Shown in pieces: positions 3,711 to 41,431 of a stretch of 64,000 nucleotides of DNA. This stretch comes from Linanthus parryae (taxonomy: Eukaryota > Streptophyta > Magnoliopsida > Ericales > Polemoniaceae), in contig JALGPY010000004.1 in NCBI GenBank assembly GCA_023055425.1, forward strand, positions 59,853,718 to 59,917,717, written 5' to 3'. The translations under genes were made by a program, and so were the position numbers. Below the pieces are notes generated by a model. The model was not told the origin of the DNA. It saw only the letters and a program-made list of their open reading frames with translations, and made no database searches. Each line of letters begins with the position of its first letter. Positions within the stretch are counted from its first letter, which is position 1.

Positions 3711-4679
3711 TGTACACACAAATTTTGCGCTTAAGCGGGTAAACACAGAAATTTGGCGACAAATGTCATTTTATTATTTATAAGCAGGATACAAATCTCT
3801 GAAACGTATTTCTTTAGTAGAAACACTACTCCTCTGATTCTTCTCGGGAATTTAAACTTGATGGGATGATTTTGGACGGTTGGATCTTCCACGTCCTTGA
3901 TGGGATTTGACCGGCACGAGGGCTTATGGTCTTTTGCTTGACTTTGACTTGTTCTTCGCGGGTTCACCGTATTTCGATGTTCTTTGAAGATTTAATTTTC
4001 TTGGAGTGGATGGCTTGATCTTCAGGATCGCTCCGTCTTTGAAGATTCGACTATCGTTGTGGCTTATTCGTCAGGGCTTCGCCGTCTTTTGGGATTTCCT
4101 TCCTTCAAAGTCTTTCCACCTTCGAGGATCTTGGCTCCTTTGGGGGCTTCTCCTGTCAGAACTTTGCTAACTTCTCTTTTCTAAGCTTTGAGCTTGAGAG
4201 AAGTTGCAGGAAAGTTGTAAGGAAAGATGTAGAGAAAGTGTTTTAGGTATAGAAAGGTATTGGAAGATGTGATTTTTCTTATGAACTTCCTCCTCTATTT
4301 ATAGGGAGATAGAGGGGTCGTTGTGCAATTTTGTAATAATTTGGGGTACCCTATACAATTTTGTAAACTCTAGGGGAGCTTGATGTACTTATAGGAAAGT
4401 TTATTTTGGTTTTTTTCCTAACAATAAATATACAATTACATTTGCGATAATCGTACACTTAAGACGCTCTTCCAATGTAACCTCCATTTTAGTCGGAGTT
4501 GATGTTTGCGATCGAGCTGGTCAATCTTGAGCTGCAATTTGACACATGGCGTCATGCGATTCGCCAGTCAGCAAGGTCTGATACTGAATTTTTCTTGTCG
4601 TGTTTCTTCATTTGATCATTTAATTAGGACATTGTTTAGTCCATAATTATTTTGATTTGACGAATTTTCGGTGTTTACA
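3711..4679 (-). repeat. 3' LTR of the Tat element, copy 1
   Basis: The 969-bp repeat begins TGTACACAC and ends GTTTACA. It matches 26674-27642 almost exactly and 40405-41371 with roughly 3% divergence. Confidence 0.95.
4296..4303 (-). promoter_or_regulatory. LTR TATA box, copy 1
   Basis: Minus-strand TATAAATA lies within CTATAAATAGAGGAGG, the expected core promoter of the LTR. In this 3' LTR it would drive transcripts leftward out of the element. Confidence 0.6.
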
Positions 4680-5453: not shown

Positions 5454-8120
5454 ATGGTACGTTCCGAGCAATCTCTCTCTTTCTTTCTTTTTTTTTTTTT
5501 TTTTTTGCATTTCTTTATCGACACATGTTACATTTTTTTGCTTGCTGGCACCCACTTTATGTTTTTGCTTTGTATGTGCTTCCTTGCAACCTGCATAATT
5601 TTTTTTGCACCAACTCTGATTATTATGTTTCGAGAAATTTACTTGAGTCCAAGCTCTGAGAGAAACCTAGTCGTGCTTTTCTTACTTTGCTAGAACATCA
5701 TCTTGTTTTGCTTGCTCCGCCTTACCTCCAGTAAACACAAATTCAAACTTTTGACCCTCTCTGCTTCTCGTAGTTGGTACAAAAGTGAGAGACGGAGATG
5801 ATGGTATAAACTTTCATAAGCATCTCCTTTGTTCTAGAGACGGAGAGTGATAGAGATAGAAAAAGAGGGAGAGAGAAAGAAGCAAACGGTGATGGCCCTC
5901 TAAATTTTGGAGAAACATCAAAATGAACAGAGAGGGATGAATATACAAAGCTTTTATTTGGAGAAGGGGATGTGTCAAAAGTCTATACTCCTTACGCGTG
6001 TCAAAATGGGCTGACACTCGGACAAAAACATAGAGAATGACATTTACTGTGGCCACCATTTTCCTTACTGTGCACAAACCTCCCTTGAACTATTTCCCAT
6101 TTGTTTTTCAGTGAGATGTCATTTTCACTTTTCATTTTCTCTTTGTGCAGTCCCTTTCATTTTCACTTCCCAGTCCCTTTACTTCTTTTTATTTTTTTCT
6201 TGTTCTATTCCATGTGAGAGGTCACTTTCAACCCTTCCCTTTCAAATATCACAATCACTTTCTTCTTATTTTATTCAAATTTTTGTTGTTTCTTTTCTTT
6301 TGGCCGGATGGCCTTCAAGTAGTGAACTTGGTGTTGTTACTTTCTTTTCTTTTCTTTTTTATTCTTTTTTCAATTTTCGCTCTTTCCATGCAACAGAGTT
6401 ACTTGCAGCCCATCATTTCTCTCTCAATTCTTTCTCATGACCATTTGCTGCCATTTTGTTTTCTTTTGATTTTTTTTGTCGTTTTCTTTGATTGTTATCT
6501 TTCCTTTTCATTTGAAGTGAAAACAGATCACTAATATCATTATTTTGTTAGGATTTTTTTTTCAATTTTTTTTTAATGATACAAAGATAGTATGTGTCCA
6601 ATAATTTTCTTCAGATGTCATTTTCTTTTTCCGAATGTGTGTTTTTTTTAATTCTTTTATTTTGAAAACAAGACTCAGAATATCCTACCTTTTTCATACG
6701 TCAGTGTTTTTTTTAGAGTTTTTTGTTTTAACATTTTTTTATAACAATTTTTTTTAAATAACATTTTTTTTACAACACTTAATAAACAACATATGTTAGT
6801 TTAAAATAGTATTTTTAGTTAATTTACTAAATCAATTATAAACTATCATTTTTTAGCATAATAAATAATTGCAATTTTTTTTTGCAGAATCCACTCGTTA
6901 CCTCAGGGTCCGTTTCAAGGCTGAACCGCAGATCGCCAGACAACAGTCGTGATGGCGAAACAGAGTGGAAGGAAATTTGTACACTAGGCAAACCGAGTAC
7001 GAAATTCTCTAATGTGGCGCGTCGTGAGAAGAGTGTGACTCTTTGTAAGCGCAAGCCTGACGACAATGAAGCTTCGAGTTTGAAGCGTGTGAAAGAGCCT
7101 CAACGTGATCACAACCTTGCAGGTTTCAAGCACCGCGACGGATTCCGATATGTTGTTAACTCGGAAAAGGGAGAAACCAATGGGGATCAAGTACGTCAGA
7201 GGAGAGAGGTGGTTGCTCACAGAGTTTCGTCCCCAGAGAAGAAATCGACAGACAAGGCTCAGGTGTCCCCAACGAAGAACGTTGATGAACAATCTGAGAA
7301 GAAGCAAAGACGCAAGCTTCTCGTGACTCGTAAGAAGATCACCGTCGACCAATTAGGGCGGGTACCCGAAGGAAAGGTCATGATGTCTCCGAACGAGTTA
7401 GCCCCAACAATTTCTGGAGACGGAGAAACCCAAGGCACGCGAAATCCGCTTGCGGGGACAGTGCAAGGTAAACGAGCGATGAAGGGGGCCGTGATTTGTT
7501 CCTCAGCACCGGTGGGCGTTGATTTGGCAAAAACCATAACAAGACGTAGAGGAAGTTCTTCTGATTTGGAGAAGGAAGTTTCAAGTTCGCCAAGAAGAGA
7601 ACCGAGGTCAGGCGAGGCTACCAACTGCTCGCTGGAATTAGAAGGCAATACTGTTCCGACATGTGATGATTCTTATCCAGCAGAGGCGATGATCGGGGGA
7701 ATGAGTTTGGCGTCAAGAAAGACGAATGAGTTCACTTCCGATGAGGTTATCCCAACAATCATTGAGCTTGGAGGGATTGAATTTGATCATTTCGACGCCG
7801 CGTTCCTGGATATTTGTCATGTTAAAGTTCCTTTAACTTCAACTCAAGGATGCTCGATGGTTGAAGAGTGTAAAACACGTCTCTTGCCGGTATTTTGGGA
7901 TATCATCCGTGGAAGGATTTTGTCGACCCCATTTGATGCGTTGGCTCCCCTTGTAGAAGATGTGCAAACTATGTTTGTGATGATTGAGGTCTTAGTTCCC
8001 GGCGGAAGTGTACACTTCAAGGAGTTAACGGATGCCTTCTTTGTGAAAGCAAGACTTTACGAGGCGGAGCGCACCACCCTTGAAACGGAGAGAACAAGGA
8101 TCATGGAAGCCAAATTTTGA
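5454..8120 (+). CDS. Antisense two-exon gene inside the Tat element, copy 1 (predicted 411 aa)
   Basis: The frame opens on the strand opposite gag-pol. A 410-codon stretch begins right after a strong 3' splice site, a long T-run followed by GCAG (AG at 6886-6887), and has no upstream ATG. Upstream, ATG at 5454-5456 is followed at once by GTACGT, a good 5' splice site; removing the T-rich intron 5457-6887 joins that ATG in frame to Asn at 6888. The N-terminal two thirds is Lys/Arg/Ser-rich, suggesting nuclear or nucleic-acid binding. The C-terminal 130 residues look folded (around IPTIIELGGIEFDHFDAAF) and end in a charged helix. I do not recognise the family. Long antisense ORFs are known from some Tat-lineage elements such as Grande. 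The frame is intact in both copies while gag-pol is dead. Confidence 0.65.
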
Positions 8121-8394
8121 CTCTCTAGTCACTGTCGTTTTTTCTTTTCATGTACTTAAAATCATGTAGTCCTCCTTCCATTTAAACAAAGAAAGCTTTC
8201 GAACATGTTCGGTTTCTTCATGCCATGATGAAAGCGTTTTTTTTGTCTGATGCGCGTAATTGATTTTGGAACACTTTGTTCGTTTTTCTTTCGAAGTCCA
8301 AAGAACACTTGAATCTGTAATTATTCGAAACACTTGTAGTGTGAGATTTTGTCTCGGATCAGGCCAAAGTGGGAAAACACATTTGTTTTTGTTG

Positions 8395-8467
8395 TTATGA
8401 CTGAACTTGAAAGGATATTCCAAGCTGCCTACGTACCCACGAGATGGGATCAAGTCAAACGTAGTTC
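8395..8467. repeat. 73-bp conserved repeat with ACGT hairpin, unit A, copy 1
   Basis: This is paired with 9034-9106 at about 85% identity. The core runs CTGCCTACGTACCC, a 7-base spacer, GGGATCAAGTCAA, ACGTAGTTC. CTACGT and ACGTAG can pair, with an inner CCC/GGG stem. The two units bracket the small membrane-protein cassette. I recall similar CTACGTA-GGGATCAAG-ACGTAG sequences in other plant Tat-like elements but cannot cite one. Confidence 0.7.
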
Positions 8468-8557
8468 ATTTTTTTTCTTTTATTTTTTTTTTCCTTTTTT
8501 TCCTTTTTTTTGTTTTTTTTTTGTTTTTTTTGCGGAGAAGATATAGGAACAGTTACC

Positions 8558-8800: not shown

Positions 8801-8808
8801 TATTTATA
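8801..8808 (-). promoter_or_regulatory. TATA box before the 65-aa ORF, copy 1
   Basis: Minus-strand TATAAATA in TCTATAAATAGAAGCTCC lies 46 bases before the ATG at 8755, giving a leader of perhaps 15-20 bases. In copy 2 the first T is C (see 31761). Confidence 0.5.
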
Positions 8809-9033
8809 GAACTCCAAGAGCATTGAATTTACATTCCTAACCTCCCTACTAGCCGTTACACGGATATGACAAAGGGTAAAAGTGACTTTTTGCCTTTTCT
8901 AGCCGTTGGAGGGGCTTCCGACAGTTGGAGGTTGAGGTGGCAATGCCATCTTTGAAGCGTTAGGGCAACAATGCAATGCACTCGGGGTTGGACTTCAACG
9001 CCAACTTTTAGGAGGCGGGAATTTTTTTTATTG

Positions 9034-9106
9034 GTATAACTGAACTCGGAAAGATATTCCAAGCTGCCTACGTACCCAAGAGACGGGATCAAGTCAAACG
9101 TAGTTC
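9034..9106. repeat. 73-bp conserved repeat with ACGT hairpin, unit B, copy 1
   Basis: This is the second unit of the pair described at 8395. Both arms of the CTACGT/ACGTAG stem are unchanged, while most differences fall in the flanks and loop. Confidence 0.7.
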
Positions 9107-9117
9107 TTTCTTTTAGC

Positions 9118-9173: not shown

Positions 9174-9695
9174 TTACGGAGGTGGGCTTTGAGGCCTAGC
9201 CGAAGGCAAGACCGACGCTTGAGAATTAGGCAAGTCTGTGATACGTTCGGCTTGGTGCAACAACCATTCGATAGTTTGACTGTCAGATCGGTGGCCCATC
9301 CTACGAGTGATGTAGTGGACTCTAGCTGCGAGGCTTGCGGGCAGGATGATGTCTGCATCTTGCCTACCAATTAGGACTTGGCGTTCTCTTGCTATTCGCC
9401 TTTCGGGTATCCTTCTCGAGGTTGAGGCCACACTCGCCCGCGGTGCCGGTGATGATGGAAATGCGTGTGGCCATGGAAACGCCGGGAGTAGAGAGTTTCT
9501 AGGCGGCGGTTGTGACAGGTACCCCTGGAAAGATCCGATTGGTGTACCTACCAAGACTGCACATGTGTTCGCGGTCACTGATCGTGATGATGATGATGAT
9601 GATGACGATGATGACGACGACGAAGACGATGAAGATGTCCCCAATGCCCATGATGATGGTGAGGGAGGAGGAGTTTTGGTTGGTGACTCAGACAT
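9174..9695 (-). CDS. TCP-domain protein captured in the Tat element, copy 1 (173 aa)
   Basis: ATG at 9695 opens a 173-aa frame in gag-pol sense. Residues 1-20 are Pro/Ser-rich and 21-37 are a serine run coded by a GAT-type microsatellite. A Pro-rich linker follows, then at about 103-151 a TCP domain. LPASLAARVHYITRRMGHRS and SDSQTIEWLLHQAE match helix I, the loop and helix II of class I TCP transcription factors at about two of three positions, including the signature TIEWLL-QAE. The basic, DNA-contacting part is poor: GRQDADIILP replaces the Arg-rich stretch of normal TCPs, so dimerisation may be kept and DNA binding lost. A TATA box lies 103 bases upstream. TCP proteins are plant-specific growth regulators; this looks like a host gene fragment taken up by the element. 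Confidence 0.85.
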   Translation of the reverse strand: MSESPTKTPPPSPSSWALGTSSSSSSSSSSSSSSSSSRSVTANTCAVLVGTPIGSFQGYLSQPPPRNSLLPAFPWPHAFPSSPAPRASVASTSRRIPERRIARERQVLIGRQDADIILPASLAARVHYITRRMGHRSDSQTIEWLLHQAERITDLPNSQASVLPSARPQSPPP

Positions 9696-9797: not shown

Positions 9798-9805
9798 TAT
9801 ATATA
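9798..9805 (-). promoter_or_regulatory. TATA box of the TCP-like gene, copy 1
   Basis: The minus strand reads CTCTATATATACAAGGCC. The TATATATA core is about 103 bases before the ATG at 9695, leaving a leader of about 70 bases. This suggests a promoter separate from the LTR. Confidence 0.6.
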
Positions 9806-10002: not shown

Positions 10003-10080
10003 TTTTCGGGCCTCTTGTTAAGGAGATGGACTTCGAGACCTAGCTTGTGACCGAGTCGATGTTGGAGTGTTATGTAAATC

Positions 10081-10355
10081 CAAAACATTTTCTGCCAGCC
10101 TCAAAATCCACTCAAATGTTTGACCGTCAGATTCATGCCTCGTTTGAGACTGATATAATGGATTCTTCCGGCGATGCTCGCAAGCAAGATGATGTCTGCA
10201 CCCTGTCTATTGACAAGGACCAGATGATCTCTTATTGGTCTTTCGTATCTACTTCCCTGGTACTGAGCCGTTGTCGGGAGAGGAGATGACGATGCACTTT
10301 CGAATGACCATATGAACGGTGAGGGGGGTGGCGTCCATGTAGGTGAACCAGTCAT
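10081..10355 (-). pseudogene. Second TCP-like copy, frameshifted, copy 1
   Basis: ATG at 10355 opens with SPTWTPPPSPFIWSFESASS, parallel to the start of the neighbouring TCP-like protein. GADIILLASIAGRIHYIS follows at the position of helix I. A one-base frameshift then moves the loop and helix II to another frame (10087-10140), which reads RHESDGQTFEWILRLAE and clearly matches the TCP helix II. The serine run is short. A TATA-like TATAAGA stands about 98 bases upstream (10453-10459). It is a diverged tandem copy of the 9174 gene. Confidence 0.8.
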
Positions 10356-10514
10356 GGTGTCCTCTCTCTACTTACAAGGGAAACTCAATACATCTTTATC
10401 ACGAGTGACGAACTTGTGGATGGTCTGAATCTTCGACTTGTTGGTTCAGTGTCTTATAAGGAGGATCGAGATTCGGCTACCACGACATATCCCGGGGGAG
10501 GAGACGGTTGCTTG

Positions 10515-10735
<221 letters not shown>

Positions 10736-10832: not shown

Positions 10833-13800
10833 CTATGGGTAGTAGCGTTTGAGGAACTTCCCATTAATAGGGCCAAGTTCCATCGCATCCTTGTCGGTCA
10901 ACATGTATGCCCCACTTGAGTATACTTCTTCCACAACGTAGGGCCCGTCCCATTTCCAAGTAAATTTGTCCCCTCGCCGGTGGGTCAAGATGATGGGTCG
11001 TCTTACTGCAAGAACCAAATCGCCTTTCTGAAACGACCTTGCTCGTACCTTCTGATTGAACGCCTTTGTCATACGAGCTTGGTAACATTCCATCCTTTGT
11101 TGAGCCCCTAGTCTCATTTCGTCAAGTGCTTCTAACTCTTCGAGTCAAAGACGTGCGTTCTCATCCTCAGCCAGGTCTTCTTGTACGACTACCCTGAGCG
11201 ATTGAATTTGTCGTTCTAGTGGCAAGACAACTTCCACACCGTACACTAGCGCGTATGGCGTTGATTGTGTCGGTGTCCGATAAGTCGTCCGGTAGGCCCA
11301 CAGAGCTTCTCCCAATATTTCGTGCCAATCTCTCTTGGATTTAGCAACAACCTTCTTCAACAAGTTTCCCAACGTTTTGTTGAATGCCTCCACCAAGCCA
11401 TTTGCGGGTGCGTTGTACATGGAAGAGTTGTATTGCTTGAACCCGAACTGTTCACAAAGTTTACTCATCAAACTGTTGTAGAAGGGATTTCCATTATCGT
11501 TGATGATGTAGCGAGGTACCCCATACCTAAAGATGATGCTTGTTCGAATGAAGTGGACCACTGTTTCCTTCTTGACTTCCCTCAGTGGAGCAGCCTCGGC
11601 CCATTTGGATAAATAGTCGATGGCGGCCAGTATGTATAAATGTCCACCTGAAGACTTGGGCAGGGGTCCTACAACGTCCAATCCCCATGCATCGAAGGGC
11701 CACGAGGCGACGGTTGGATGAAGCGGCTCCGGAGGCTGGTGGATGAAGTTCGCATGGAATTGACATGCCTGACATCTCTTAACTTAATCCATGCAATCTT
11801 TGATCATCGTAGGTCAGTAGTAGCCCATTCTCTTGATTCGAAAGTGGAGCTTTGGCCCCGATTGGTGAGCGCCACATATCCCAGAATGAGCTTCTTCCAG
11901 GGCTAGCTTGGCTTCCGAATCTTCTAGGCAACGGAGGAACAGTCCCTCGAAGGAACGACAGTATAGTATTTCTTTGTAGAAGATAAAACGTGGTGCACGC
12001 CGCTTTATGTCTGTTCTCTTGCGAGGATCGTCCGGGAGCTTCCCATCTCTCAAGTATTCGATTAATGGGTGACGCCAGTCTTCGTTCTCTATTTCGGGCA
12101 CATAAATGACGTCAAATTCAAGATCAGCTGCTGCTTGGGGTGCAATCACTCTTCGGTAGATTGGAATCTTTGTTTCAGGATCAGGAAGAGCCAAGTTGGA
12201 AGCTAAGTTTGCTAGTGCGTCGGCTTGCTTGTTTTCTTTCCTCGGCACATGTTGCAGGATGACCTCCTCGAGACATGCGAGTAGGAGAGAGGCGTACTTG
12301 TGCAATGGTATCAGCTGGGGCTTCTTTACTTTGTAAATGTTCAGAAGTTGGTTGATGATCAGCATGGAGTCCCCAAAAACATCGAGTCGTGATTTTTTCA
12401 TTTCGATGGCAATCTCCAAGCCAATTATGAGTGCGTGGTATTCCGCTTCATTATTTGAGCAGTTTTGGGTCAAAAGGAATGCATATGGAAACATGTCCCC
12501 TTCTGGTGAGATGAAGATCACGCCCGCTCCGGCTCCATCACGATGGGAGGCTCCGTCGAAGTACATTTTCCATGGTTCAGGAACTTTGACAAAGAAGATG
12601 TCTTCGTCGGGCAAGTCTTCTGATAGCTCCCATTCAGCAAGTATCGGATGGTCTGCTAGGAAGTCCGCCAATGCTTGGCCTTTGACCGCTTTCTGGGGTA
12701 CGTAGATGATTTCAAATTCTTTCATCATAAGGGACCATCGGTCCAGCCTGTCCGACAACACCGGTTTTGACATGATGTGCTTGACCGGATTGGCCTTCGA
12801 TATGAGACGAACGGTGTGAGCTTGGAAGTAATGTCTTAGTTTTTGAATAGCATATACCAGGGCTAGGCACATCTTCTCGATGGGAGAGTAATTCAACTCG
12901 TAAGGAGTCATCATCCTGCTCAAGTAGTATAACGCATTTTCTTTGCTCTCGTCATTTTCTTGAGCTAGTAGGGCGCCCACCGAACGTTCCTATGCTGCAA
13001 TGTATAAGATCAACGACTTTCCTGGAATGGGGGCAGCCAAGACTGGTGACTTCTTCAGGTAAGACTTTATGCTTTCAAACGCATTGTTGCAAGCTTCGTC
13101 TCATTCAAAGGGAACTCCTTTATTCATGAGTTTGTTGAAAGGTTGACATCTTCCTGCCAAGTTCGATATGAACCGACTGAGATACGCCAAACGTCCTTGT
13201 AGGCTTTTAAGCTCATGGATATTTCGTGGCTCTGGAAATTTCACGCTGGCCTCAATTTTTGCTTGGTCAATCTCGATGCCATGATTGCGGACGACGAATC
13301 CAAGGAACTTTCCGGAAGTAACTCCGAATGCACATTTTAAGGGGTTCATTTTGAATTGGCATCGGCGCAGGCGGTCGAATACGCTCTTTAGATGTTGGAG
13401 ATGGTCCTTCCTTATCTTGGTCTTAACTACCACGTCGTCAACGTAGCATTCGACATTTTTGTGGAGCATGTCGTCGAAGATCTTTTGCATCGCTCTTTGG
13501 TATGTTGCTCCATCGTTCTTTAGTCCAAACGGCATGACTTTGTAACAATATATGCCCTTGGGTGTGCGAAAAGCTGTCAATTCTTCATCTCGCGATGCCA
13601 TACGGATTTGATTATACTTAGAGGATCCATCCATGAAGGACAAGGCTTCGTGTCCCGTGGTCGCATCTACCATAAGATTTGCTATAGGCAACGAAAAATC
13701 GTCCTTCAGGCACGCATTGTTGAGGTCTCGGAAGTCAACACAGATTCTTGTTTGTCCATTCTTCTTCTTGACAGGAACTATGCTTGAGATCCACGGATAC

Positions 13801-13841
13801 TTGACTTCTCGAATGAACCCAGCTTCAATCAGCTTATTCAC
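10833..13841 (-). pseudogene. pol: reverse transcriptase, two RNase H domains and integrase, copy 1
   Basis: One frame runs right to left through the end of pol. The reverse transcriptase (13101-13841) has FRTPKGIYCYKVMPFGLKN and YVDD. A tethered RNase H with YELNYSPIEKMCLALVYAI follows, then an extra archaeal-type RNase H (KMYFDGASHRDGAGAGVIF, NNEAEYHALIIGLEIA, VFGDSMLI) and a zinc-binding stretch. The integrase core (11145-11681) keeps its acidic residues (MDVVG, NDNG, NGLVEAFNKTL), and the C-terminal piece ends in KFLKRYYP. The double RNase H is the hallmark of Tat-lineage Gypsy elements. In-frame stops break it near 13101, 12990, 11814, 11784 and 11145, all shared with copy 2. Confidence 0.93.
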
Positions 13842-15777
13842 CTCAACCTCGATTTGGGAATCAGCTCTGGTCGGAAGCGTCTTTGGGCTTGTTTAAGTGG
13901 CCTTGCACCATGTTTGATGGCTAGGTGATGAACTGCAACTTTGGGGTCCAGTCCAGACATTTCCTTATAGGTCCATGCAAACTCATCTTTGTACTCGTGC
14001 AGGAGTGTGATGTATTCTTCCTGTTCCTCTAAATTCAAGTGCATACTAATGTATGTCGGTCGCGGATCTTCAATGGATCCGATATTGATTTCTTTTAATT
14101 CATCTATGGTTGACCTGACGCCTTCCTCAAGTTGCGAAGGGGCTTCTTCGGCATCCTCCTCTCCTTGATCTCTGCTTTCACTAACAGTTATGTGGAATGA
14201 GGAAGCAATACTCTCTTCTTTTGTCGAGTCCTTCTCATCGAGATACATCTTTTTCAATGTCATCGTTTCCCTTCTGAATTTGAAGGATCCATTGAAGGAT
14301 ACGACAATCGTGTCTTGGCGGCGCATGTGAGATTGAATCTTGCTATCTATGTTTCCCGAGGACGCATGAAGTTTACGTCTCTTAACGCCAGCCTTGATAG
14401 ATACACGGTTCATTTTAAAAACCGGTCTACCTAGTCGTTGGAATACATACGTCCTTGCCTTCTTTTCAATTCGGTCAAAGACGGACGATTTTGTTCTTGC
14501 AGAGGAGACTTCTTCCTCACACGTGATGGAATGGACTTCAGCCCTCTTGATCACTATCCGAATCGGTTCAGGGGGTGTGAAACCGAGCCCTGCTCGTGAT
14601 TTTGGAATGGTATACCCTTTATCTTTGAGCATCTTTTGAGTTGAGGTCAAGCCATGCAATTCTCCTTTGTTAGTCATGGACGGAAGCTCCCCCAATATGC
14701 TTGGTCTTCGAGGGTCATGTCCTGCCTTGGCGAAGAGCCTATATGCATTTGGATCAAATCCCTCTGATGTGCGCTTTGAAGGGAGATCAATGTTTCCAAA
14801 AGTCAAATTTTGGACAGGTAGAACAAACCCCTTAAGGGGTGGCTTGCCTATGAGACCCAATCTGGCGATTGGAAGGTTTAGCCCCTCGAAATATGAATCT
14901 CCATCTTTGTTCTCTGGGGCGTGCATTGTGGCTTGAGACGCCTCTTCATCTTGAACTTTCTCATTTTTCTCGGTCATTTGATCATCTCGAGGGGATACCA
15001 GATGATTCTTTAGGCTCTGAGGTTCGAAACACGTGGAAAAGGCAGGATGCTCTTCGTCTTCTTTTTCTAGGTCGAGATTTGCATCCGCGAAGTAGGATTC
15101 TGCCTCGGTGAAAGGTTTCCATCGGATTTGATCACCTTTACCATGCCATCTTTGCAATACTTGAGGCACTGGTGAAGGGTGGACGGGACAATACCATTCT
15201 TGTGGATCCAAGGTCGTCCCAGTAACACTTTGTATGAAGTTTTTGCATCTATGACATGGAACAATGCCCCTGGATCCGCCTCACCAATGACTAGGCTGAG
15301 ACGGATGGTCCCGATAGCTCTCTGTCCTTCACGATTAAACCCCTGGATTAATAGGTAACTGGGCCTGAGTACGTCAATGGAAATGGCGAGTTCTTTCACC
15401 GTTGCTAATGGAAGAATATTCACTGCTGACCCTCCATCCACCAACATCCTACTAACTTTTTGTTCGAGGATATATCCAGTAATGAAGAGAGGGCGATTGT
15501 GCGGGGTTGAGCCGAGCAAAAAATCTTCATCCGAGAAGTTGATATCGCAATCTTGAGGATTTAACTTGGGTCGTGCCTTTTCCACTGAAAGGCAAGGCGC
15601 GTAACCAGATTCCGCTATTTCCACTCCTTCTTTAACATTGCATGATACCTCGTAGGTCATGGATAACGGGTAAACATCCACGGATATCAAGTTTGTGGAA
15701 ACAGTTTCATGTTCTTCTTCGAAACAGACCTTCCCTTCTTTAGCTAGCTGCATAATTTTTTCCTCAATACAAAGCAT
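13838..15777 (-). pseudogene. pol: protease and linker to reverse transcriptase, copy 1
   Basis: An aspartic protease domain (15067-15777) has the active-site motif MLVDGGSAVNILPL and the later VLLGRPWIH. A frameshift near 15110-15130 leads to a long linker (13838-15211) with RLGLIGKPPLKGFVLP. It ends just before the reverse transcriptase at LDPKVAVHHLAIKHGARPLK, where another frameshift separates it from the next frame. Confidence 0.9.
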
Positions 15778-17406
15778 TTTGAAGTCGGGTGGCCGACTAA
15801 ACGGTGAAACTTGTTGTAATTTGGGTCGCCCACCATTGTTGCTTCTTCGGGTCGTTCTGCCACAGGAAGTTCAAAATCACTTAGCTTCATCAGCTGGTCA
15901 AATATTCCAGGGACCGCAGAGTCCGGGAAAGGGTAAGATTTTTCTTGCAGTTCTTTCAACGAGGGCCTTGACCGTTGAGCCAACTGGACGGTGTTTCCCC
16001 TTCCTAATTCATTTTGTCTTGGTCTTTTCGTAGATTGCAACGGTGCGGCTGCGACGACCATCGACTCTTTCACTCCTGCTTTGGGGCCAAACTTCAAATA
16101 CTTTTCGGGTATCAGTTCTATTTCCATCCCTACGAGAGTCATGCAAAGGAGGCCCATGGATTCCATTTGCTGCAATGCTTAATTCCATGGCATGGGCGCG
16201 TGTGGCTAATTCTTCGAAGGTCTTCGGTTTGATCCCTTGGAGGATATAGCGCAAGCCCCAGTGCATGCCTTGAATGCACATCTCGGTCGCAGAACTTTCG
16301 CATAGCCGATCCTTACAGTTGAGTCTTAAGTTTCTCCATCTATTTATATACTCAACAACGGGTTTGTCCTTCCATTGACGGGAGCTTGTGAGTTCCATCA
16401 TGCTAACGGTCCTGCGAGTGCTGTAAAATCGGTTTAAAAACTCTTGCTCCAATTGTTCCCAGCTACCAATCGATCTTGTCTCAATGTCACAGTACCAGTC
16501 GAAAGCATTTCCTTTTAGACTTCGGACGAACTGCTTAACAAGGAGATCCCCATCAGTTCCAGCATTATTGCACGTCTCGACGAAGTGTGCAATATGTTGT
16601 TTCGGGTTCCCAACTCCTTTGAATAGCTGGAATTTGGGTGGCTGGTACCCATTTGGCATCCGTAGGTCTTCGATCCTCTTTGTGTATGGCTTGTTATATG
16701 TCGCCGAGGATTTCGAACCTTCATCGTATCTGGATTTCACGGCCTCCAAGATGTATTCTTTTAGCTAATCTACAGGGAACGAGCCTTCAGATGATGCTTG
16801 CACGTGTTTGCGAGTGTCATCATCTGTACTCGAAATCTTGACAACCTCTTTCTGCCTTGCTCGACGCTCATGAGGGTCGGTAGTGCGATTAGCCTCCCTT
16901 GGGTTTTCGAGCTTGCTTAATATGGCTGCAAACTGGGTATCTCGGTTCCTCATGGCCGTAGATAATTCCTCGACCGTCCGTGTCAATCCTATGACTTGTT
17001 CTTCGAGGGAAACAATGCTCGTAGTCATCGCCGGCATGGTGCCTGTTTTGAAAGAAATTGCCTCATCATGTACCATATGTGCTTTTTGTGGGTTCCGGAA
17101 GGCAAAAGTAGATTCAGAAATCTCTTCATGACTTCCTTCAGTATCGGGGTGCGTACGCCCATGTCCTGTCCCCGGCAAGGAGCCTGCTTCTCGCATTGAT
17201 AGATCATGAACATTGGTACCTTCAAGTGTCACCTTTAAGAGTCCTTCGGTCTTCTTCGACTCTGGGACGAGTCTGGAGGATTCTGCAACCGTCGATCTAG
17301 CTTTGCTTCGTGTGACACGATCAGTGACCTGTTCACCGGGACTTGTGGAGGATTTGTCCATGCCTGTAGACTTGGAGCCTCCCGTCTTGATTGGAATCTT
17401 CGGGAT
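15744..17406 (-). pseudogene. gag of the Tat element, 5' end missing, copy 1
   Basis: The capsid-type gag domain lies at 16009-16749 ([73 protein letters not shown]). A TAG at 16765 interrupts the frame between it and a Ser/Thr-rich N-terminal part with a likely coiled coil (SLEEQVIGLTRTVEELSTAM). A frameshift near 16170 precedes the C-terminal part, which ends in a His/Cys-containing stretch. At 17406 the frame runs into foreign sequence, so the first 6 residues and the start codon are lost. Confidence 0.92.
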
Positions 17407-18596
17407 AGTGCTTATAGAATGTCTGGCCAGACTCAAATAAATCAATATAGGATATTGATGTTATTTGCACGAATAAGGTTATTCCCAGGATCGAGAAACT
17501 ATGGATTGGATATACGAGTGTGACTGGTATGTCTCGTGTCCAATCCGGATATAGAGACAAAGGGATGAGACAATTACTTGTACAAGGTTTGTCGGATGAC
17601 TATTCTATTAGTTGGCTAGAATTGATGTTTTGCTAGAAACCGCTCCATATTAGCAAATTGTTGCTACCAACTAGATAGAACCTATGGGGTCACACGCTAT
17701 ATAGAGTTGAACTAGATTTGGTAATTAATTAATATTAATTAATTAGAAGGATCACTTTGCAACACCTTGCAAACTTAGTAGGACTAATTTGCAAGGAATG
17801 GACTAAACCGAATTCTAGTTATTAGTGGAATAGGTCCTTTAGGTAGTTGGCAAGGATTTGTTGGAATATATAAATGATGATCCTTCCTTCCTTCCCACAC
17901 TTATGACCCTTTTGATCATAACTTGAGTGGGAGAGAACAAAAGGCGAGAGAGCAAGCAAGCAAAGGAGGCTGACCGCCCCCCTTGCCGTTGCCCCAATCC
18001 CATCGGCCAACAAAGGAGGCCGCCCCTCCTTGTTGCCTCGTTTTGCGTGATTTCTTCTTCATATTCCTCCGTTCCTAGCTAGCACAAAGGAGAAGGAAGA
18101 TCTAGATCTCAACTCTAGACGTGGATCAACTATAGAGACGTGACACAATTCACGTTACACGTCATCACAGGAGAAACCCTAAGGTGTGTAACTTGATTTT
18201 TTCCCTTACCATCGTTGTGTATCTTGTCCTGTGATCCTTGGAGGGTATTGAATGGATGAATTATGTTTTTCCGCTGCGTATCCATGATCAAAACCCTACA
18301 GACCAATCAAAGCATACAATTTTAAGGTTAGCTCCTTCGTGGACGTCCATCCAATGACTCGAACAATGATTTTGGTGACAAGACTCCAGTAATACACAAC
18401 CAATGATAAGGCGTCCTAATTGCATCGAGATTTAGATTATAACGTGACTAGTGAGATAACGCCCACAACTTAATCAGTGCCAAAGAAAATACCCTTATTG
18501 CTTCAGTCATCAACCCAAATAACTATTGTTATAGTCTCACAAGCGGCTCTTCCCAGAGTGTAAGTTCATAAAATATCCCAAGTTTGAAAGTAAGTA
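17407..18596. other. Non-coding stretch left of the solo LTR; possible Copia LTR remnant
   Basis: No protein-coding signal is seen. Within it, from about 17859, TGTTGGAATATATAAATGAT is followed by CT-rich leader-like sequence and, near 18265-18300, TTTTTCCGCTGCGTATCC. These are landmarks I associate with plant Copia LTRs. I could not find a target duplication, a partner LTR or a primer site, so the assignment is tentative. Confidence 0.3.
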
Positions 18597-19690: not shown

Positions 19691-21466
19691 ATCATTTAGA
19701 TGTTTCACTTTCGGATTGTTATTTAGATTTGGATACCAATTTCAAACGAGACTACAAAGAGGAGTATTTCAAAACAAATAAACAACTCAAATAAATCAAG
19801 TACGGCAGTAATTTTTCACAAATAACTCACGCGATACGCGAAATGAAGGAAAGGCACACGAGGCTAGGCATATTAACTTACAAAAAATCCAAGCACGTCC
19901 TATAATTCGTTCTCGTCTACGGAATCGTCACCTACAAATCCGAGTCTCTAACTTAATATAATCTCAACAAATACACAACCTACATATTTTTCTATCTCAT
20001 TTTATTTTTCTCAAGAAAATATCCATTTTAATCTAATTTACAAACCCAAAATATATTTTCTTTCAATAATATATATACCCCCAAAAATATACTTATTAAT
20101 TTATAAATAATAATCTAATCAAATTAAATAAAAACTAATTTCATAAATAAATCTGAAATTAAAAACTGTAAAAAGTTTCTGAAATGTCAACTGCCTCCCC
20201 CAAAGTTTCTGAAACGACATTATAATCCCCCTGAAAACTTTCTGAAAGTGACACTTTAACCCCCAAATCAAGAACATTCAAGCTAACCGATTAAAACGTG
20301 GATTCGAGGACTTAAAACTTGATTTTGATTACTAAAAACAACTCAGGGGAAGATTTCAAGCATACCCATAACAAATTTCGCGAGAAACGGTCGCACGGGT
20401 CAAGATCGCGTCGGGTCGCCGGAGGTGGAGCTTTCGCCGGGGCTTCTCCGGCTGTTCTTGGCTTCGGTTGAGGCCTCCATCATCTTAGTCGGACTCCTCT
20501 GAGTCGAATAGGACTGGTTTGAAAGCTTGGGTCGTCACGGTTGAACTCCGGCGAGTTCTTCGTCGGAAACAATGGTGGTCGCCGGCGGTGTAGGGGCTGC
20601 TGCTACTGTTTCTGCGGCTCTGTCTCCTTCTGGTGGGTTTGTCGAGCAAGGTAGAGAGGGGAGAGAACGAGAGAACAGTGGGAAGTGGGAGAGATGGGTG
20701 GCCGTGAAGGTGGCTGCCATTTTTGCCGGCGGGTTCTCGTCGGAAAGGCAGCGGCGTTGTTGCCGCTGCTGCTGCTGCTTCGCCTGCTGCTGCGGGTATT
20801 CTGAGAGGGAGAGAGAGAGGGCTAGCTGGAGGTGGTGGCGGTCGTGTTTGCGTGTTCTCGGTGGTGGTGGGTCGTGGTGGCGTTCATCGGAGATGGCAGC
20901 GGCAAGGCCGCTGCCGCTGCTGCCTCTTGCTGCGTCCGACGTACAGAACAGAGGAGGGAGAGATGGTGTCTAAGAGGGGGTGAGATCAGAGAGGGAGATG
21001 GTGGTGATGATGGCGTGGTCGCCGGAGATGGTGGTGGTGGCGGGCTGCCTTCTTGCAGCTGCTGCCGCTGCTGTTGTTGCCGTTGTTTCTGGGCAGAGAG
21101 GGGTGAGACAGAGGGAGAGAGATGGAGGGATAGAGGGACGGTGGTGAGGTGGTGATGGTGGCGTCGGGGTTGGTGTTGGGTGTGTTGCCCTTCGGCAAAT
21201 CCAGAAGAGAGCGAGAGAGTGTGAGGTGGAGGGAGATGGTGGCAGAGAGGAAGGTGAGGGTGGAGGTGGTCTCGGGGGTTGGGTGTGCCGAAGAAGAGAG
21301 GGAGGAGGTGGTACATATAGAGGGAGGAGGGAGAGAGAGAGAGAGACGGGTGAGAGAGAGAGAGAGAGGGAGAGAAAGGAGGGAGAGTTTACGTGAAAGA
21401 GGGAGAAGAGGTGTTGGGGGTGGAGAAATTTTAGGGAGTTGGGATAGATGTCAGGAGTGGGTTTGA

Positions 21467-21544
<78 letters not shown>
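21467..21544. repeat. ATT microsatellite in the solo LTR
   Basis: About 25 uninterrupted TTA/ATT units lie close to the GA-rich tract. Confidence 0.95.
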
Positions 21545-21545
<1 letters not shown>

Positions 21546-21823
21546 ATACAAAGTATAGTATAAAATACTATATAAAATACTTAGTATGTATACGGTACAA
21601 ATACTATGGTAGAAAGTATAAAAATACGTATAGTATAAATACAAATACTAGTATACATACCAATAGCTTCGTAAAAGACAAAATATGCCCCCAACAACAA
21701 CTATATAATATTATCCGAAATTACAATTACCTCCCCTACTCGTCATATAATTCAAAAATAGCTGTTTAAATTTTATGAAAAATACGTCAAAATATTCAGA
21801 AAAATACGGGGTGTTACAAAGTA

Positions 21824-26483: not shown

Positions 26484-26673
26484 CTCAAAGTGAACGTTGA
26501 TGCTGGTTGGAACCTGGAAAAGCAACTCGTCGGCGCAAAGTGGTAATACGGGATGATGAAGGTAAGATCATTGCCGAAAAAGGAGTGCAGATGAATCAGC
26601 TAGAGAAGTTGAAGTCGCCATCATCTTAAAAGGTGTGAAGATGGTGAAGGAGATGAAGCTGCAATCAACCATC
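26484..26673 (+). pseudogene. RNase H-like (RVT_3) relic, 5' part, copy 2
   Basis: This is the same relic as 3521-3710. Its last five bases CCATC (26669-26673) are the left target duplication of the Tat element, and it continues at 41372. Confidence 0.7.
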
Positions 26674-27642
26674 TGTACACACAAATTTTGCGCTTAAGCG
26701 GGTAAACACAGAAATTTGGCGACAAATGTCATTTTATTATTTATAAGCAGGATACAAATCTCTGAAACGTATTTCTTTAGTAGAAACACTACTCCTCTGA
26801 TTCTTCTCGGGAATTTAAACTTGATGGGATGATTTTGGACGGTTGGATCTTCCACGTCCTTGATGGGATTTGACCGGCACGAGGGCTTATGGTCCTTTGC
26901 TTGACTTTGACTTGTTCTTCGCGGGTTCACCGTATTTCGATGTTCTTTGAAGATTTAATTTTCTTGGAGTGGATGGCTTGATCTTCAGGATCGCTCCGTC
27001 TTTGAAGATTCGACTATCGTTGTGGCTTATTCGTCAGGGCTTCGCCGTCTTTTGGGATTTCCTTCCTTCAAAGTCTTTCCACCTTCGAGGATCTTGGCTC
27101 CTTTGGGGGCTTCTCCTGTCAGAACTTTGCTAACTTCTCTTTTCTAAGCTTTGAGCTTGAGAGAAGTTGCAGGAAAGTTGTAAGGAAAGATGTAGAGAAA
27201 GTGTTTTAGGTATAGAAAGGTATTGGAAGATGTGATTTTTCTTATGAACTTCCTCCTCTATTTATAGGGAGATAGAGGGGTCGTTGTGCAATTTTGTAAT
27301 AATTTGGGGTACCCTATACAATTTTGTAAACTCTAGGGGAGCTTGATGTACTTATAGGAAAGTTTATTTTGGTTTTTTTCCTAACAATAAATATACAATT
27401 ACATTTGCGATAATCGTACACTTAAGACGCTCTTCCAATGTAACCTCCATTTTAGTCGGAGTTGATGTTTGCGATCGAGCTGGTCAATCTTGAGCTGCAA
27501 TTTGACACATGGCGTCATGCGATTCGCCAGTCAGCAAGGTCTGATACTGAATTTTTCTTGTCGTGTTTCTTCATTTGATCATTTAATTAGGACATTGTTT
27601 AGTCCATAATTATTTTGATTTGACGAATTTTCGGTGTTTACA
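26674..27642 (-). repeat. 3' LTR of the Tat element, copy 2
   Basis: 969 bp, TGTACACAC to TTTACA. A minus-strand TATAAATA at 27259-27266 marks its core promoter. Confidence 0.95.
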
Positions 27643-28413: not shown

Positions 28414-31078
28414 ATGGTACGTTCCGAGCAATCTCTCTCTTTCTTTCTTTTTTTTTTTTTTTTTGCATTTCTTTATCGACACATGTTACATTTTTTTGCT
28501 TGCTGGCACCCACTTTATGTTTTTGCTTTGTATGTGCTTCCTTGCAACCTGCATAATTTTTTTTGCACCAACTCTGATTATTATGTTTCGAGAAATTTAC
28601 TTGAGTCCAAGCTCTGAGAGAAACCTAGTCGTGCTTTTCTTACTTTGCTAGAACATCATCTTGTTTTGCTTGCTCCGCCTTACCTCCAGTAAACACAAAT
28701 TCAAACTTTTGACCCTCTCTGCTTCTCGTAGTTGGTACAAAAGTGAGAGACGGAGATGATGGTATAAACTTTCATAAGCATCTCCTTTGTTCTAGAGACG
28801 GAGAGTGATAGAGATAGAAAAAGAGGGAGAGAGAAAGAAGCAAACGGTGATGGCCCTCTAAATTTTGGAGAAACATCAAAATGAACAGAGAGGGATGAAT
28901 ATACAAAGCTTTTATTTGGAGAAGGGGATGTGTCAAAAGTCTATACTCCTTACGCGTGTCAAAATGGGCTGACACTCGGACAAAAACATAGAGAATGACA
29001 TTTACTGTGGCCACCATTTTCCTTACTGTGCACAAACCTCCCTTGAACTATTTCCCATTTGTTTTTCAGTGAGATGTCATTTTCACTTTTCATTTTCTCT
29101 TTGTGCAGTCCCTTTCATTTTCACTTCCCAGTCCCTTTACTTCTTTTTATTTTTTTCTTGTTCTATTCCATGTGAGAGGTCACTTTCAACCCTTCCCTTT
29201 CAAATATCACAATCACTTTCTTCTTATTTTATTCAAATTTTTGTTGTTTCTTTTCTTTTGGCCGGATGGCCTTCAAGTAGTGAACTTGGTGTTGTTACTT
29301 TCTTTTCTTTTCTTTTTTATTCTTTTTTCAATTTTCGCTCTTTCCATGCAACAGAGTTACTTGCAGCCCATCATTTCTCTCTCAATTCTTTCTCATGACC
29401 ATTTGCTGCCATTTTGTTTTCTTTTGATTTTTTTTGTCGTTTTCTTTGATTGTTATCTTTCCTTTTCATTTGAAGTGAAAACAGATCACTAATATCATTA
29501 TTTTGTTAGGATTTTTTTTTCAATTTTTTTTTAATGATACAAAGATAGTATGTGTCCAATAATTTTCTTCAGATGTCATTTTCTTTTTCCGAATGTGTGT
29601 TTTTTTTAATTCTTTTATTTTGAAAACAAGACTCAGAATATCCTACCTTTTTCATACGTCAGTGTTTTTTTTAGAGTTTTTTGTTTTAACATTTTTTTAT
29701 AACAATTTTTTTTAAATAACATTTTTTTTACAACACTTAATAAACAACATATGTTAGTTTAAAATAGTATTTTTAGTTAATTTACTAAATCAATTATAAA
29801 CTATCATTTTTTAGCATAATAAATAATTGCAATTTTTTTTTGCAGAATCCACTCGTTACCTCAGGGTCCGTTTCAAGGCTGAACCGCAGATCGCCAGACA
29901 ACAGTCGTGATGGCGAAACAGAGTGGAAGGAAATTTGTACACTAGGCAAACCGAGTACGAAATTCTCTAATGTGGCGCGTCGTGAGAAGAGTGTGACTCT
30001 TTGTAAGCGCAAGCCTGACGACAATGAAGCTTCGAGTTTGAAGCGTGTGAAAGAGCCTCAACGTGATCACAACCTTGCAGGTTTCAAGCACCGCGACGGA
30101 TTCCGATATGTTGTTAACTCGGAAAAGGGAGAAACCAATGGGGATCAAGTACGTCAGAGGAGAGAGGTGGTTGCTCACAGAGTTTCGTCCCCAGAGAAGA
30201 AATCGACAGACAAGGCTCAGGTGTCCCCAACGAAGAACGTTGATGAACAATCTGAGAAGAAGCAAAGACGCAAGCTTCTCGTGACTCGTAAGAAGATCGC
30301 CGTCGACCAATTAGGGCGGGTACCCGAAGGAAAGGTCATGATGTCTCCGAACGAGTTAGCCCCAACAATTTCTGGAGACGGAGAAACCCAAGGCACGCGA
30401 AATCCGCTTGCGGGGACAGTGCAAGGTAAACGAGCGATGAAGGGGGCCGTGATTTGTTCCTCAGCACCGGTGGGCGTTGATTTGGCAAAAACCATAACAA
30501 GACGTAGAGGAAGTTCTTCTGATTTGGAGAAGGAAGTTTCAAGTTCGCCAAGAAGAGAACCGAGGTCAGGCGAGGCTACCAACTGCTCGCTGGAATTAGA
30601 AGGCAATACTGTTCCGACATGTGATGATTCTTATCCAGCAGAGGCGATGATCGGGGGAATGAGTTTGGCGTCAAGAAAGACGAATGAGTTCACTTCCGAT
30701 GAGGTTATCCCAACAATCATTGAGCTTGGAGGGATTGAATTTGATCATTTCGACGCCGCGTTCCTGGATATTTGTCATGTTAAAGTTCCTTTAACTTCAA
30801 CTCAAGGATGCTCGATGGTTGAAGAGTGTAAAACACGTCTCTTGCCGGTATTTTGGGATATCATCCGTGGAAGGATTTTGTCGACCCCATTTGATGCGTT
30901 GGCTCCCCTTGTAGAAGATGTGCAAACTATGTTTGTGATGATTGAGGTCTTAGTTCCCGGCGGAAGTGTACACTTCAAGGAGTTAACGGATGCCTTCTTT
31001 GTGAAAGCAAGACTTTACGAGGCGGAGCGCACCACCCTTGAAACGGAGAGAACAAGGATCATGGAAGCCAAATTTTGA
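28414..31078 (+). CDS. Antisense two-exon gene inside the Tat element, copy 2 (predicted 411 aa)
   Basis: Same structure as 5454-8120: ATG 28414-28416, intron 28417-29845 (GTACGT to GCAG), second exon 29846-31078. The intron is two bases shorter through a poly-T change. The only coding change I noticed is Thr to Ala in KKI(T/A)VDQLG. Start, splice signals and frame are all intact. Confidence 0.65.
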
Positions 31079-31517: not shown

Positions 31518-31715
31518 TCAGTGGTACTTCATCCTTCTATACATGGTTGTTTCCTGCTTTTCCCAACGGTATGCTAGCAACATAAGTATAAACCCGAACA
31601 ACCAAACCAAAAGGAAAGGGAGAAAAGGCTGATTGATGAAGGAAAGGCCGAGGCGCGCAAAGAGGACCATCACGTACACGTATATGATCAGTGCAATGAC
31701 AATCTCTGTAGACAT
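31518..31715 (-). CDS. 65-aa protein with two predicted membrane helices, copy 2
   Basis: Protein identical to 8558-8755. The upstream TATA sequence carries a substitution here (31761-31768), so any independent expression may differ between the copies. Confidence 0.45.
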   Translation of the reverse strand: MSTEIVIALIIYVYVMVLFARLGLSFINQPFLPFLLVWLFGFILMLLAYRWEKQETTMYRRMKYH

Positions 31716-31760: not shown

Positions 31761-31768
31761 TATTTATG
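31761..31768 (-). promoter_or_regulatory. Altered TATA box before the 65-aa ORF, copy 2
   Basis: The minus strand reads CATAAATA, where copy 1 has TATAAATA. This is one of very few substitutions between the duplicates. Confidence 0.4.
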
Positions 31769-32133: not shown

Positions 32134-32655
32134 TTACGGAGGTGGGCTTTGAGGCCTAGCCGAAGGCAAGACCGACGCTTGAGAATTAGGCAAGTCTGTG
32201 ATACGTTCGGCTTGGTGCAACAACCATTCGATAGTTTGACTGTCAGATCGGTGGCCCATCCTACGAGTGATGTAGTGGACTCTAGCTGCGAGGCTTGCGG
32301 GCAGGATGATGTCTGCATCTTGCCTACCAATTAGGACTTGGCGTTCTCTTGCTATTCGCCTTTCGGGTATCCTTCTCGAGGTTGAGGCCACACTCGCCCG
32401 CGGTGCCGGTGATGATGGAAATGCGTGTGGCCATGGAAACGCCGGGAGTAGAGAGTTTCTAGGCGGCGGTTGTGACAGGTACCCCTGGAAAGATCCGATT
32501 GGTGTACCTACCAAGACTGCACATGTGTTCGCGGTCACTGATCGTGATGATGATGATGATGATGACGATGATGACGACGACGAAGACGATGAAGATGTCC
32601 CCAATGCCCATGATGATGGTGAGGGAGGAGGAGTTTTGGTTGGTGACTCAGACAT
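32134..32655 (-). CDS. TCP-domain protein captured in the Tat element, copy 2 (173 aa)
   Basis: Protein identical to 9174-9695: Pro-rich start, serine run, then helix I, loop and helix II of a TCP domain (TIEWLLHQAE) with a non-basic DNA-contact region. It lies in a complete element, downstream of pol in the same sense. It could be read from the genomic RNA or from its own TATA box at 32758-32765. Confidence 0.85.
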   Translation of the reverse strand: MSESPTKTPPPSPSSWALGTSSSSSSSSSSSSSSSSSRSVTANTCAVLVGTPIGSFQGYLSQPPPRNSLLPAFPWPHAFPSSPAPRASVASTSRRIPERRIARERQVLIGRQDADIILPASLAARVHYITRRMGHRSDSQTIEWLLHQAERITDLPNSQASVLPSARPQSPPP

Positions 32656-32757: not shown

Positions 32758-32765
32758 TATATATA
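32758..32765 (-). promoter_or_regulatory. TATA box of the TCP-like gene, copy 2
   Basis: TATATATA on the minus strand, about 103 bases before the ATG at 32655; unchanged from copy 1. Confidence 0.6.
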
Positions 32766-32962: not shown

Positions 32963-33040
32963 TTTTCGGGCCTCTTGTTAAGGAGATGGACTTCGAGACC
33001 TAGCTTGTGACCGAGTCGATGTTGGAGTGTTATGTAAATC

Positions 33041-33315
33041 CAAAACATTTTCTGCCAGCCTCAAAATCCACTCAAATGTTTGACCGTCAGATTCATGCCT
33101 CGTTTGAGACTGATATAATGGATTCTTCCGGCGATGCTCGCAAGCAAGATGATGTCTGCACCCTGTCTATTGACAAGGACCAGATGATCTCTTATTGGTC
33201 TTTCGTATCTACTTCCCTGGTACTGAGCCGTTGTCGGGAGAGGAGATGACGATGCACTTTCGAATGACCATATGAACGGTGAGGGGGGTGGCGTCCATGT
33301 AGGTGAACCAGTCAT
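33041..33315 (-). pseudogene. Second TCP-like copy, frameshifted, copy 2
   Basis: Same frameshift as 10081-10355, between the helix I equivalent and the helix II equivalent, so the damage predates the segmental duplication. Confidence 0.8.
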
Positions 33316-33590
33316 GGTGTCCTCTCTCTACTTACAAGGGAAACTCAATACATCTTTATCACGAGTGACGAACTTGTGGATGGTCTGAATCTTCGACTTG
33401 TTGGTTCAGTGTCTTATAAGGAGGATCGAGATTCGGCTACCACGACATATCCCGGGGGAGGAGACGGTTGCTTGTTGGAGCATATATGCAGTGGGCCATC
33501 ACCAACTATTTTTCTTTTCTTTTCTTTTCTTTTTGTTGTTGGAGCATAAATGCAGTGGGCCATCACCACCTATTTTTCTTTTCTTTTCTT

Positions 33591-33591
<1 letters not shown>

Positions 33592-33646
<55 letters not shown>
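33592..33646. repeat. GTT microsatellite, about 18 units, copy 2
   Basis: Shorter allele of the run at 10632-10733. Confidence 0.95.
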
Positions 33647-33647
<1 letters not shown>

Positions 33648-33667
33648 TTTTATTTATTTACGGGAAT

Positions 33668-33731
33668 GATGTGTAGTTTAAGCTCGTACGTCGAGGAGCG
33701 ATGTGCAGTTTAGGCTCGTGCTTCAAGGAGC
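33668..33731. repeat. 31-bp family repeats, third site, copy 2
   Basis: Two tandem copies matching 10756-10819. Confidence 0.8.
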
Positions 33732-41371: not shown

Positions 41372-41431
41372 CCATCATCGAGAGTGATGCTCAAATCATC
41401 ATCTCCCTCTGGACCAGATTGAAGCAAAGAG
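41372..41431 (+). pseudogene. RNase H-like (RVT_3) relic, 3' part
   Basis: It opens with the right target duplication CCATC, then reads IIESDAQIIISLWTRLK, completing the fold begun at 26484. The last catalytic Asp is in ESDAQ. The relic is split by the 14.7-kb element. Confidence 0.7.

Follow-up and report, generated by a model that had tools for sequence, protein, structure and literature searches.

In Ogre and Retand, an additional RNase H (aRH) sits between the RNase H and the integrase (PMC6317226), and an antisense Transposase_28 ORF is present in 97% of Retand clusters (PMC11963269). The accessory gene of Grande encodes a nuclear protein and has its own promoter (PMC7264820). A screen of 121 angiosperm genomes lists 15 unusual domains, B3 and AlkB-type domains among those named (PMC9289625). 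By word search, TCP is absent from the main text of that screen and from the available text of an aORF review (PMC7264820), and it is not mentioned in the accessible parts of the Retand survey, which considered ORFs of 600 bp or more (PMC11963269), or of the study with a threshold of 250 codons or more (PMC6317226). The first-pass annotation of the locus presented here knew of no described Tat element with a TCP gene, and in the literature searched (largely without subscription papers) no description of a TCP-coding LTR element of any kind was found.

The locus lies in a 64-kb stretch of Linanthus parryae DNA, analysed as a whole and called the window below (Table 1); all genome searches refer to this one genome of 1.51 Gb. 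The window contains two copies of an LTR element within a single duplication of about 22.96 kb, whose pieces are 99.86% and 99.40% identical. The element has gag, protease (a weak match, E 0.015), RT, RNase H and integrase in gypsy order, LTRs of the form TG..CA and a 5-bp TSD. An RVT_3 match (E 1.4e-19), which we read as the aRH of the Tat clade, follows RT_RNaseH and precedes the integrase frame, and this order of RNase H, RVT_3-type RNase H and integrase supports the assignment of the element to the Tat type. Copy 2 is full length, and its LTR pair gives a K2P distance of 0.035, or about 1.3 My if 1.3e-8 substitutions per site and year are assumed. Copy 1 has its 3' LTR, and no 5' LTR was found for it inside the window. 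In both copies gag-pol is divided among several frames.

Table 1. Coordinates of the element features in the window; the last two rows refer to positions within the loci named.
Feature	Position	Strand	Remarks
3' LTR, copy 1	3711-4679	-	
412-aa ORF antisense to gag-pol	6882-8120	+	copy 2 at 29840-31078 (+)
ORF-D, copy 1, 65 aa	8558-8755	-	two stretches judged hydrophobic by eye; conserved in both the Tat and the chromodomain-type lineage
TATAAAT before ORF-D, copy 1	8802-8808	-	53 bp before ATG; inside block common to both lineages
ORF-C, copy 1, TCP-like aORF, 173 aa	9174-9695	-	Pfam TCP, PDB TCP15 7vp6, shuffle and frame controls
TATATAT before ORF-C	9799-9805	-	110 bp before ATG; copy 2 at 32759-32765
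ORF-A, copy 1, first TCP-like ORF, frame broken	10018-10355	-	two tblastn pieces to P0001 in L009; profile 18.2 bits
TATAAG before ORF-A	10453-10458	-	103 bp before ATG; copy 2 at 33413-33418
gag-pol, copy 1 (gag, weak protease match, RT, RNase H, RVT_3, integrase)	11145-17445	-	several frames
TSD GATGG, 3' side, copy 2	26669-26673	-	5' side at 41372-41376
3' LTR, copy 2	26674-27642	-	
ORF-D, copy 2	31518-31715	-	
CATAAAT in place of TATAAAT, ORF-D copy 2	31762-31768	-	
ORF-C, copy 2	32134-32655	-	identical protein; duplication of copy 1
ORF-A, copy 2, frame broken	32978-33315	-	ATG frame 33315-33061, 84 aa
5' LTR, copy 2	40405-41371	-	96.4% identity to its 3' LTR
pol-deleted derivative, stop-free frames from gag-protease to integrase tail	L080 3659-5836		725 codons
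pol-deleted derivative, stop-free frames from gag-protease to integrase tail	L081 3600-5768		722 codons

Several other features of the window were recorded. The 412-aa antisense ORF had no Pfam match, Transposase_28 as found in Retand included, and for its second copy no family came up even at an E cut-off of 1; it might be a diverged plant mobile domain (PMD) or Transposase_28 ORF. A 96-bp stretch containing GGGTACGTAGGCAGCTTGGAATATC is repeated after ORF-C and ORF-D (8381-8476 and 9021-9114, and in copy 2; 88.5% identical), possibly as a common 3'-end or regulatory signal. A CAA microsatellite in the interval between integrase and ORF-A (10573-10734 and about 33500-33700) differs in length between the copies. 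The minus strand at 20822-21644 has frames of Ser/Pro-rich, low-complexity sequence that include a long run of Asn and show no sign of a gene.

The 173-aa frame, hereafter ORF-C, is the 3'-most TCP-like ORF of the element. Its reported coordinates and gag-pol sense were borne out: it reads on the minus strand from an ATG at 9695 to a stop at 9174, downstream of the frames for gag, protease, RT, RNase H, RVT_3 and integrase, which share its strand. That the frame is intact in both copies while gag-pol is broken was likewise observed, but since both copies lie within one duplication, their intactness is not independent evidence. The helix-loop-helix of the TCP family (PF03634) is present in ORF-C according to Pfam, PDB and profile comparisons alike. 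Pfam matched residues 116-160 at 34.5 bits (cut-off 23; E 3.8e-8), and PDB chain 7vp6 of TCP15 matched at E 4.7e-9. Because the N-terminal half of ORF-C is Ser/Pro-rich, a chance or low-complexity similarity was considered. The match lies outside the repeats, however, and on a profile built from 11 class I TCP domains of the host ORF-C scored 45.5 bits, whereas none of its 2000 shuffled versions exceeded 7.4 bits; of the 329 stop-to-stop frames of at least 60 residues in the window scored on this profile, only four passed the inclusion threshold, namely both copies of ORF-C and both of a neighbouring TCP-like frame (18.2 bits). Chance similarity was ruled out by these controls, and we give it a negligible probability.

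What has been kept is a part of the domain. The about two thirds identity to class I factors claimed earlier holds for the helix-loop-helix, where 20 of 32 residues agree with a host class I domain. It does not extend to the basic segment, the region that contacts DNA (contacts as described in the accessible text of PMC10049435), which is replaced in ORF-C (3 of 17 identical). The motif RR-x-R was present in all 23 intact host TCP domains (24 places were read, and L071, with an in-frame stop and without RR-x-R, was dropped) and in none of 19 representative element domains; among 66 extracted element ORFs it occurred once (L026), upstream of the aligned segment. The net charge of the basic segment is 4 to 7 in host domains and 0 to 3 in element domains. 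ORF-C is TCP-derived, but the description as a transcription-factor domain overstates what is retained, because the DNA-binding segment has been replaced. The two helices are retained, as is a strand-like segment, ADIILP. A single-sequence AlphaFold model of ORF-C was poor (mean pLDDT 51.6), with helices at 120-132 and 139-153.

A genome search with ORF-C gave at least 136 matches (best 150 of 419 candidates scored), dispersed in the genome; of the 34 near-full-length matches listed, 26 had no stop, both numbers counted by eye. The domain is thus a fixed part of an element subfamily, a point on which the first-pass annotation had proposed a check. Many copies contain two or three TCP-like ORFs in tandem: ORF-A (mostly 111-113 aa), ORF-B (113 aa, one copy extending to 147) and ORF-C (162-178 aa). 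ORF-A, broken in window copy 1, is open in other copies, and no ORF-B was seen in the window. Examples of ORF-A and ORF-B scored 18.6, 20.4 and 23.4 bits in the Pfam TCP search. Most of these Tat ORFs start with M-x-x-SP-x-[KR] followed by PPSP, and most finish with RSPSP-like tails. In this cassette the TCP-like ORFs are followed by ORF-D, a hydrophobic ORF of 65-68 aa.

The TCP ORF marks a Tat subfamily. A listed TCP ORF lay within 16 kb of 13 of the 150 RT matches listed (24,400 candidates), and all of the eight closest RT matches listed (92-100% identity, two of them the window's own) had a TCP ORF within this distance. Five of the 13 TCP-associated RT matches lie in open frames of 2238-2241 aa. 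At one locus with an RT of 88% identity (L085), the integrase tail is followed by 7.5 kb without TCP or ORF-D, and an antisense PMD ORF (E 1.3e-33) is present. A second one at 88% (L086) had no TCP or ORF-D in 7.9 kb, and it counts for less, no element landmark being recognised there.

A second family of TCP-like ORFs was reached through weak matches (36-38% identity). The search with this family 2, in which again 150 candidates were scored, gave at least 152 matches, of which 111 of the 150 listed were without stop (counted by eye), and they fall in tiers of about 98, 90 and 65% identity. The element at C35:166.92 Mb has LTRs that are 99.92% identical, a TSD of CTATA and a single gag-pol frame of 1559 aa, with a PF00385 chromodomain match at the C-terminal end of pol that stays below the cut-off of 25.1 (20.8 bits, E 3.6e-4). 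Its TCP ORF and ORF-D are antisense and occupy the interval from the 5' LTR to gag. The same antisense layout was seen in a second element, from the 65% tier, whose LTRs are 99.83% identical, and these chromodomain-type gypsy host elements are very young. The layout was taken from these two elements opened at full length, and from L039-L041 around the cassette; other copies were assigned by ORF or short flanks. The Pfam TCP score was 21.9 bits in the first element (cut-off 23) and 26.8 bits in the second.

The two hosts are distant, with only 33% protein identity between the Tat and chromodomain-type RTs. Nevertheless, the block formed by ORF-D and its upstream region is 79-81% (family 2a) and 86-90% (family 2c) identical to that of Tat at the DNA level. 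Families 2a and 2c are 83% identical in this DNA block, 91.8% identical in pol protein over 1249 columns, and 73.2% identical over the first 336 residues, which are gag. The closeness of the ORF-D block does not track the pol genes, and exchange between lineages is therefore the simplest reading. The TCP-coding part is far more diverged than ORF-D, as only its first 58 bp match the window DNA (82.8%). Transfer of the cassette between retrotransposon lineages is very probable from these sequence comparisons. Given the opposite orientation and the location at the other element end in the chromodomain-type lineage, the cassette, or at least its ORF-D part, appears to have been exchanged and probably carries its own promoters.

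The first-pass annotation had proposed the capture of a host regulator. That the frame is TCP-derived, class-I-like and conserved throughout the family agrees with this view; a simple single capture by one Tat element does not, because a homologous cassette occurs antisense in the chromodomain-type lineage. In a tree built with host TCPs (42 domains, 59 columns), the Tat ORFs grouped with class I, and those of the chromodomain-type lineage fell with class II (91/83 at each fork), so that the Tat ORFs are nearest to class I, while a single clade of all element domains was also allowed (p-AU 0.27). ORF-C scored 41-50 bits against class I profiles, as compared with 19-21 bits against class II. 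The split in the tree would fit two independent captures, of a class I TCP by Tat and of a class II TCP by the chromodomain-type lineage, on a common leader and ORF-D. The chromodomain-type proteins agree with this in their best identities (0.35-0.41 to class II, 0.26-0.33 to class I) and in a profile-profile comparison of the set (40.7 for class II, 38.0 for class I). Their single-sequence profile scores, however, are higher for class I in two cases out of three (22.3 and 22.1 bits, against 19.9 and 18.1 for class II) and tie in the third; the N-terminal MSESPTRTPPPSPSSW is common to both sets, and the single clade was not rejected by a tree that has 59 columns only. We consider two captures to be on the unlikely side. 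The jumping genes may have taken over a regulator of their host for their own use. Clusters of numerous divergent TCP frames of host type (e.g. KDRHTKIKDRDRRARLPAYCC) lie at G000:C90:8.90-9.08 Mb and C1:114.35-114.79 Mb (L082, L083, L084), some at a spacing of about 12 kb, in both orientations and many with stops; they lie outside the element cassette.

Plant LTR elements are known to transduce gene fragments (PMC7264820), and the window copy is not an intact element, so the ORFs might be passenger DNA, that is, a host gene fragment without function. Against this, the frames are open in most of the matches listed for both families (26/34 and 111/150), TCP-like ORFs are repeated up to three times and occur in two lineages, and dN/dS is well under 1. 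The median dN/dS of ORF-C was about 0.24 over 19 copies (of the 22 frames that passed the script, L024, L010 and L027 were removed as misassigned, duplicate or truncated), and changes in eight ORF-C copies numbered 447, 314 and 953 at codon positions 1, 2 and 3. Medians were 0.14 for family 2a (12 copies) and 0.36 for family 2 (18 copies); ORF-D gave 0.26 over 25 copies of both lineages and a weaker 0.45 within Tat, and values were also weaker for ORF-A (0.44, 17 copies) and ORF-B (0.58, eight copies of low divergence). All these values come from open frames only, which is a bias. Furthermore, the TCP-like ORFs were retained at two loci after the loss of pol: no RT is listed there, gag-protease is fused to the integrase tail, and the remainder of pol is gone. 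One of these loci has ORF-A, ORF-B and ORF-C open; the other has A and C open, with B represented by a tblastn match only. The passenger explanation thus appears very improbable, and we conclude with high confidence that ORF-C, judged from its sequence, is a TCP-derived accessory gene under selection.

TATA-like boxes were found before three of the four ORFs in Tat elements. One lies at -108 to -112 before ORF-C in 21 of 21 copies listed, and at -93 to -103 before ORF-A in 15 of 17. Before ORF-D it is at -52/-53 in 30 of 35 copies listed and at -71/-98 in three, counted from a start codon further in; the two copies without it include window copy 2. No TATA box was found before ORF-B in eight of eight copies, nor before the chromodomain-type TCP ORFs nearer than -258 (2a, 12/12) or within 260 bp (2c, 6/6). 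The chromodomain-type cassette is antisense and so cannot be expressed by transcription that starts in sense at the 5' LTR; own promoters are therefore likely for ORF-A, ORF-C and ORF-D. The cassette proteins would then be made from internal promoters.

The best reading is that ORF-C encodes an accessory protein that is under selection, is probably expressed from its own promoter and may form pairs with TCPs that do not bind DNA. Because the strand-like ADIILP segment is kept, pairing may survive without DNA contact, and the helix-loop-helix would still dimerise. Given the loss of charge in the segment that contacts DNA, TCP dimers formed by the Tat proteins would be unable to bind DNA and would thereby damp host class I TCPs. 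In animals, Id proteins damp bHLH factors. By this analogy we infer that an Id-like antagonist is the most likely mechanism, and we propose Id-like antagonism of host class I TCPs by the Tat proteins tentatively. The idea fits the Tat set better, since the chromodomain-type proteins keep a charge of 1 to 3 in the basic segment.

This residual charge, together with the retained ADIILP segment and helices, could also point to a protein that still binds nucleic acid, though with altered specificity, and that acts on promoters or RNA of the element itself, in the manner of retroviral accessory regulators. In agreement with such a role, 19 of 21 ORF-C copies are preceded by GGCCCA at about -240. 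Among the nine ORF-A copies with sufficient flank, eight have it at about -172 to -182 and the ninth has the reverse complement. These sites may, however, be mere inheritance with the duplicated ORFs, and no GGCCCA-type site lies within 260 bp before the chromodomain-type ORFs. Moreover, the RR-x-R contact motif is lost, and neither GGNCCCAC nor GGGNCCAC was found in the LTRs and cassettes of three elements checked; this lack of a consensus TCP site speaks against simple self-regulation. We regard nucleic-acid binding of this kind as unlikely. A third view takes the TCP fold as a dimerisation scaffold only, with a protein acting together with ORF-D in the replication cycle, for example at membranes or in particle trafficking. 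ORF-D is conserved and accompanies the TCP-like ORF in both lineages; on the other hand, the two have separate TATA-like boxes in Tat, and such a role seems to us quite improbable.

Id-like damping is the preferred mechanism. The explanation as a whole, namely a TCP accessory gene of a Tat subfamily, linked in a cassette to ORF-D, exchanged between lineages and acting by Id-like damping, stands about evenly balanced in our judgement. The fullest version, a mobile cassette with its own promoters that has crossed two distant lineages and encodes a DNA-binding-dead, Id-like TCP antagonist plus a small membrane protein, is rather doubtful. If true, it would mean a transposon-encoded antagonist of a regulator family of plant growth and the cell cycle.

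These findings bear on the function of the extra ORFs in plant LTR elements, as the extra ORF here has a recognisable ancestor with solved structures and occurs in two element lineages in opposite orientations; the exchange would also show accessory DNA moving between retrotransposon lineages. Compared with the class I factor TCP15 (PDB 7vp6, 7vp3), the likeness of ORF-C lies in the helix-loop-helix, and the difference in the basic segment, where RR-x-R is absent. Tat ORF-A, ORF-C and ORF-D agree in position and orientation with aORF-3S (sense, between pol and the 3' LTR), but described aORF-3S are env-like or have no known domain, and they were examined among ORFs of 600 bp or more, whereas the present ORFs are shorter. 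The two additional transmembrane-protein ORFs of Papaver Retand (PMC12582370) are possibly like ORF-D, going by their description only; the TCP passages in the available text of that paper concern binding motifs and not a coding ORF. The AlkB m6A demethylase ORF of orchid Ty3/gypsy elements is similar in that a host-derived regulatory domain has become fixed in a gypsy family, but it is an RNA-active enzyme of one lineage (PMC9289625), whereas the present elements have, in two lineages, a TCP fold that lacks the basic segment. Consensuses of Aegilops tauschii LTR elements with a B3 DNA-binding domain likewise place a plant transcription-factor domain inside LTR elements, though of another domain family, and no cassette or transfer is described for them in the accessible text (PMC9289625). 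Finally, Grande resembles the present elements in having an accessory gene in the long 3' internal region under its own promoter, which is predicted in our case; its gene is antisense, and no TCP domain is mentioned for it in the text available (PMC7264820).
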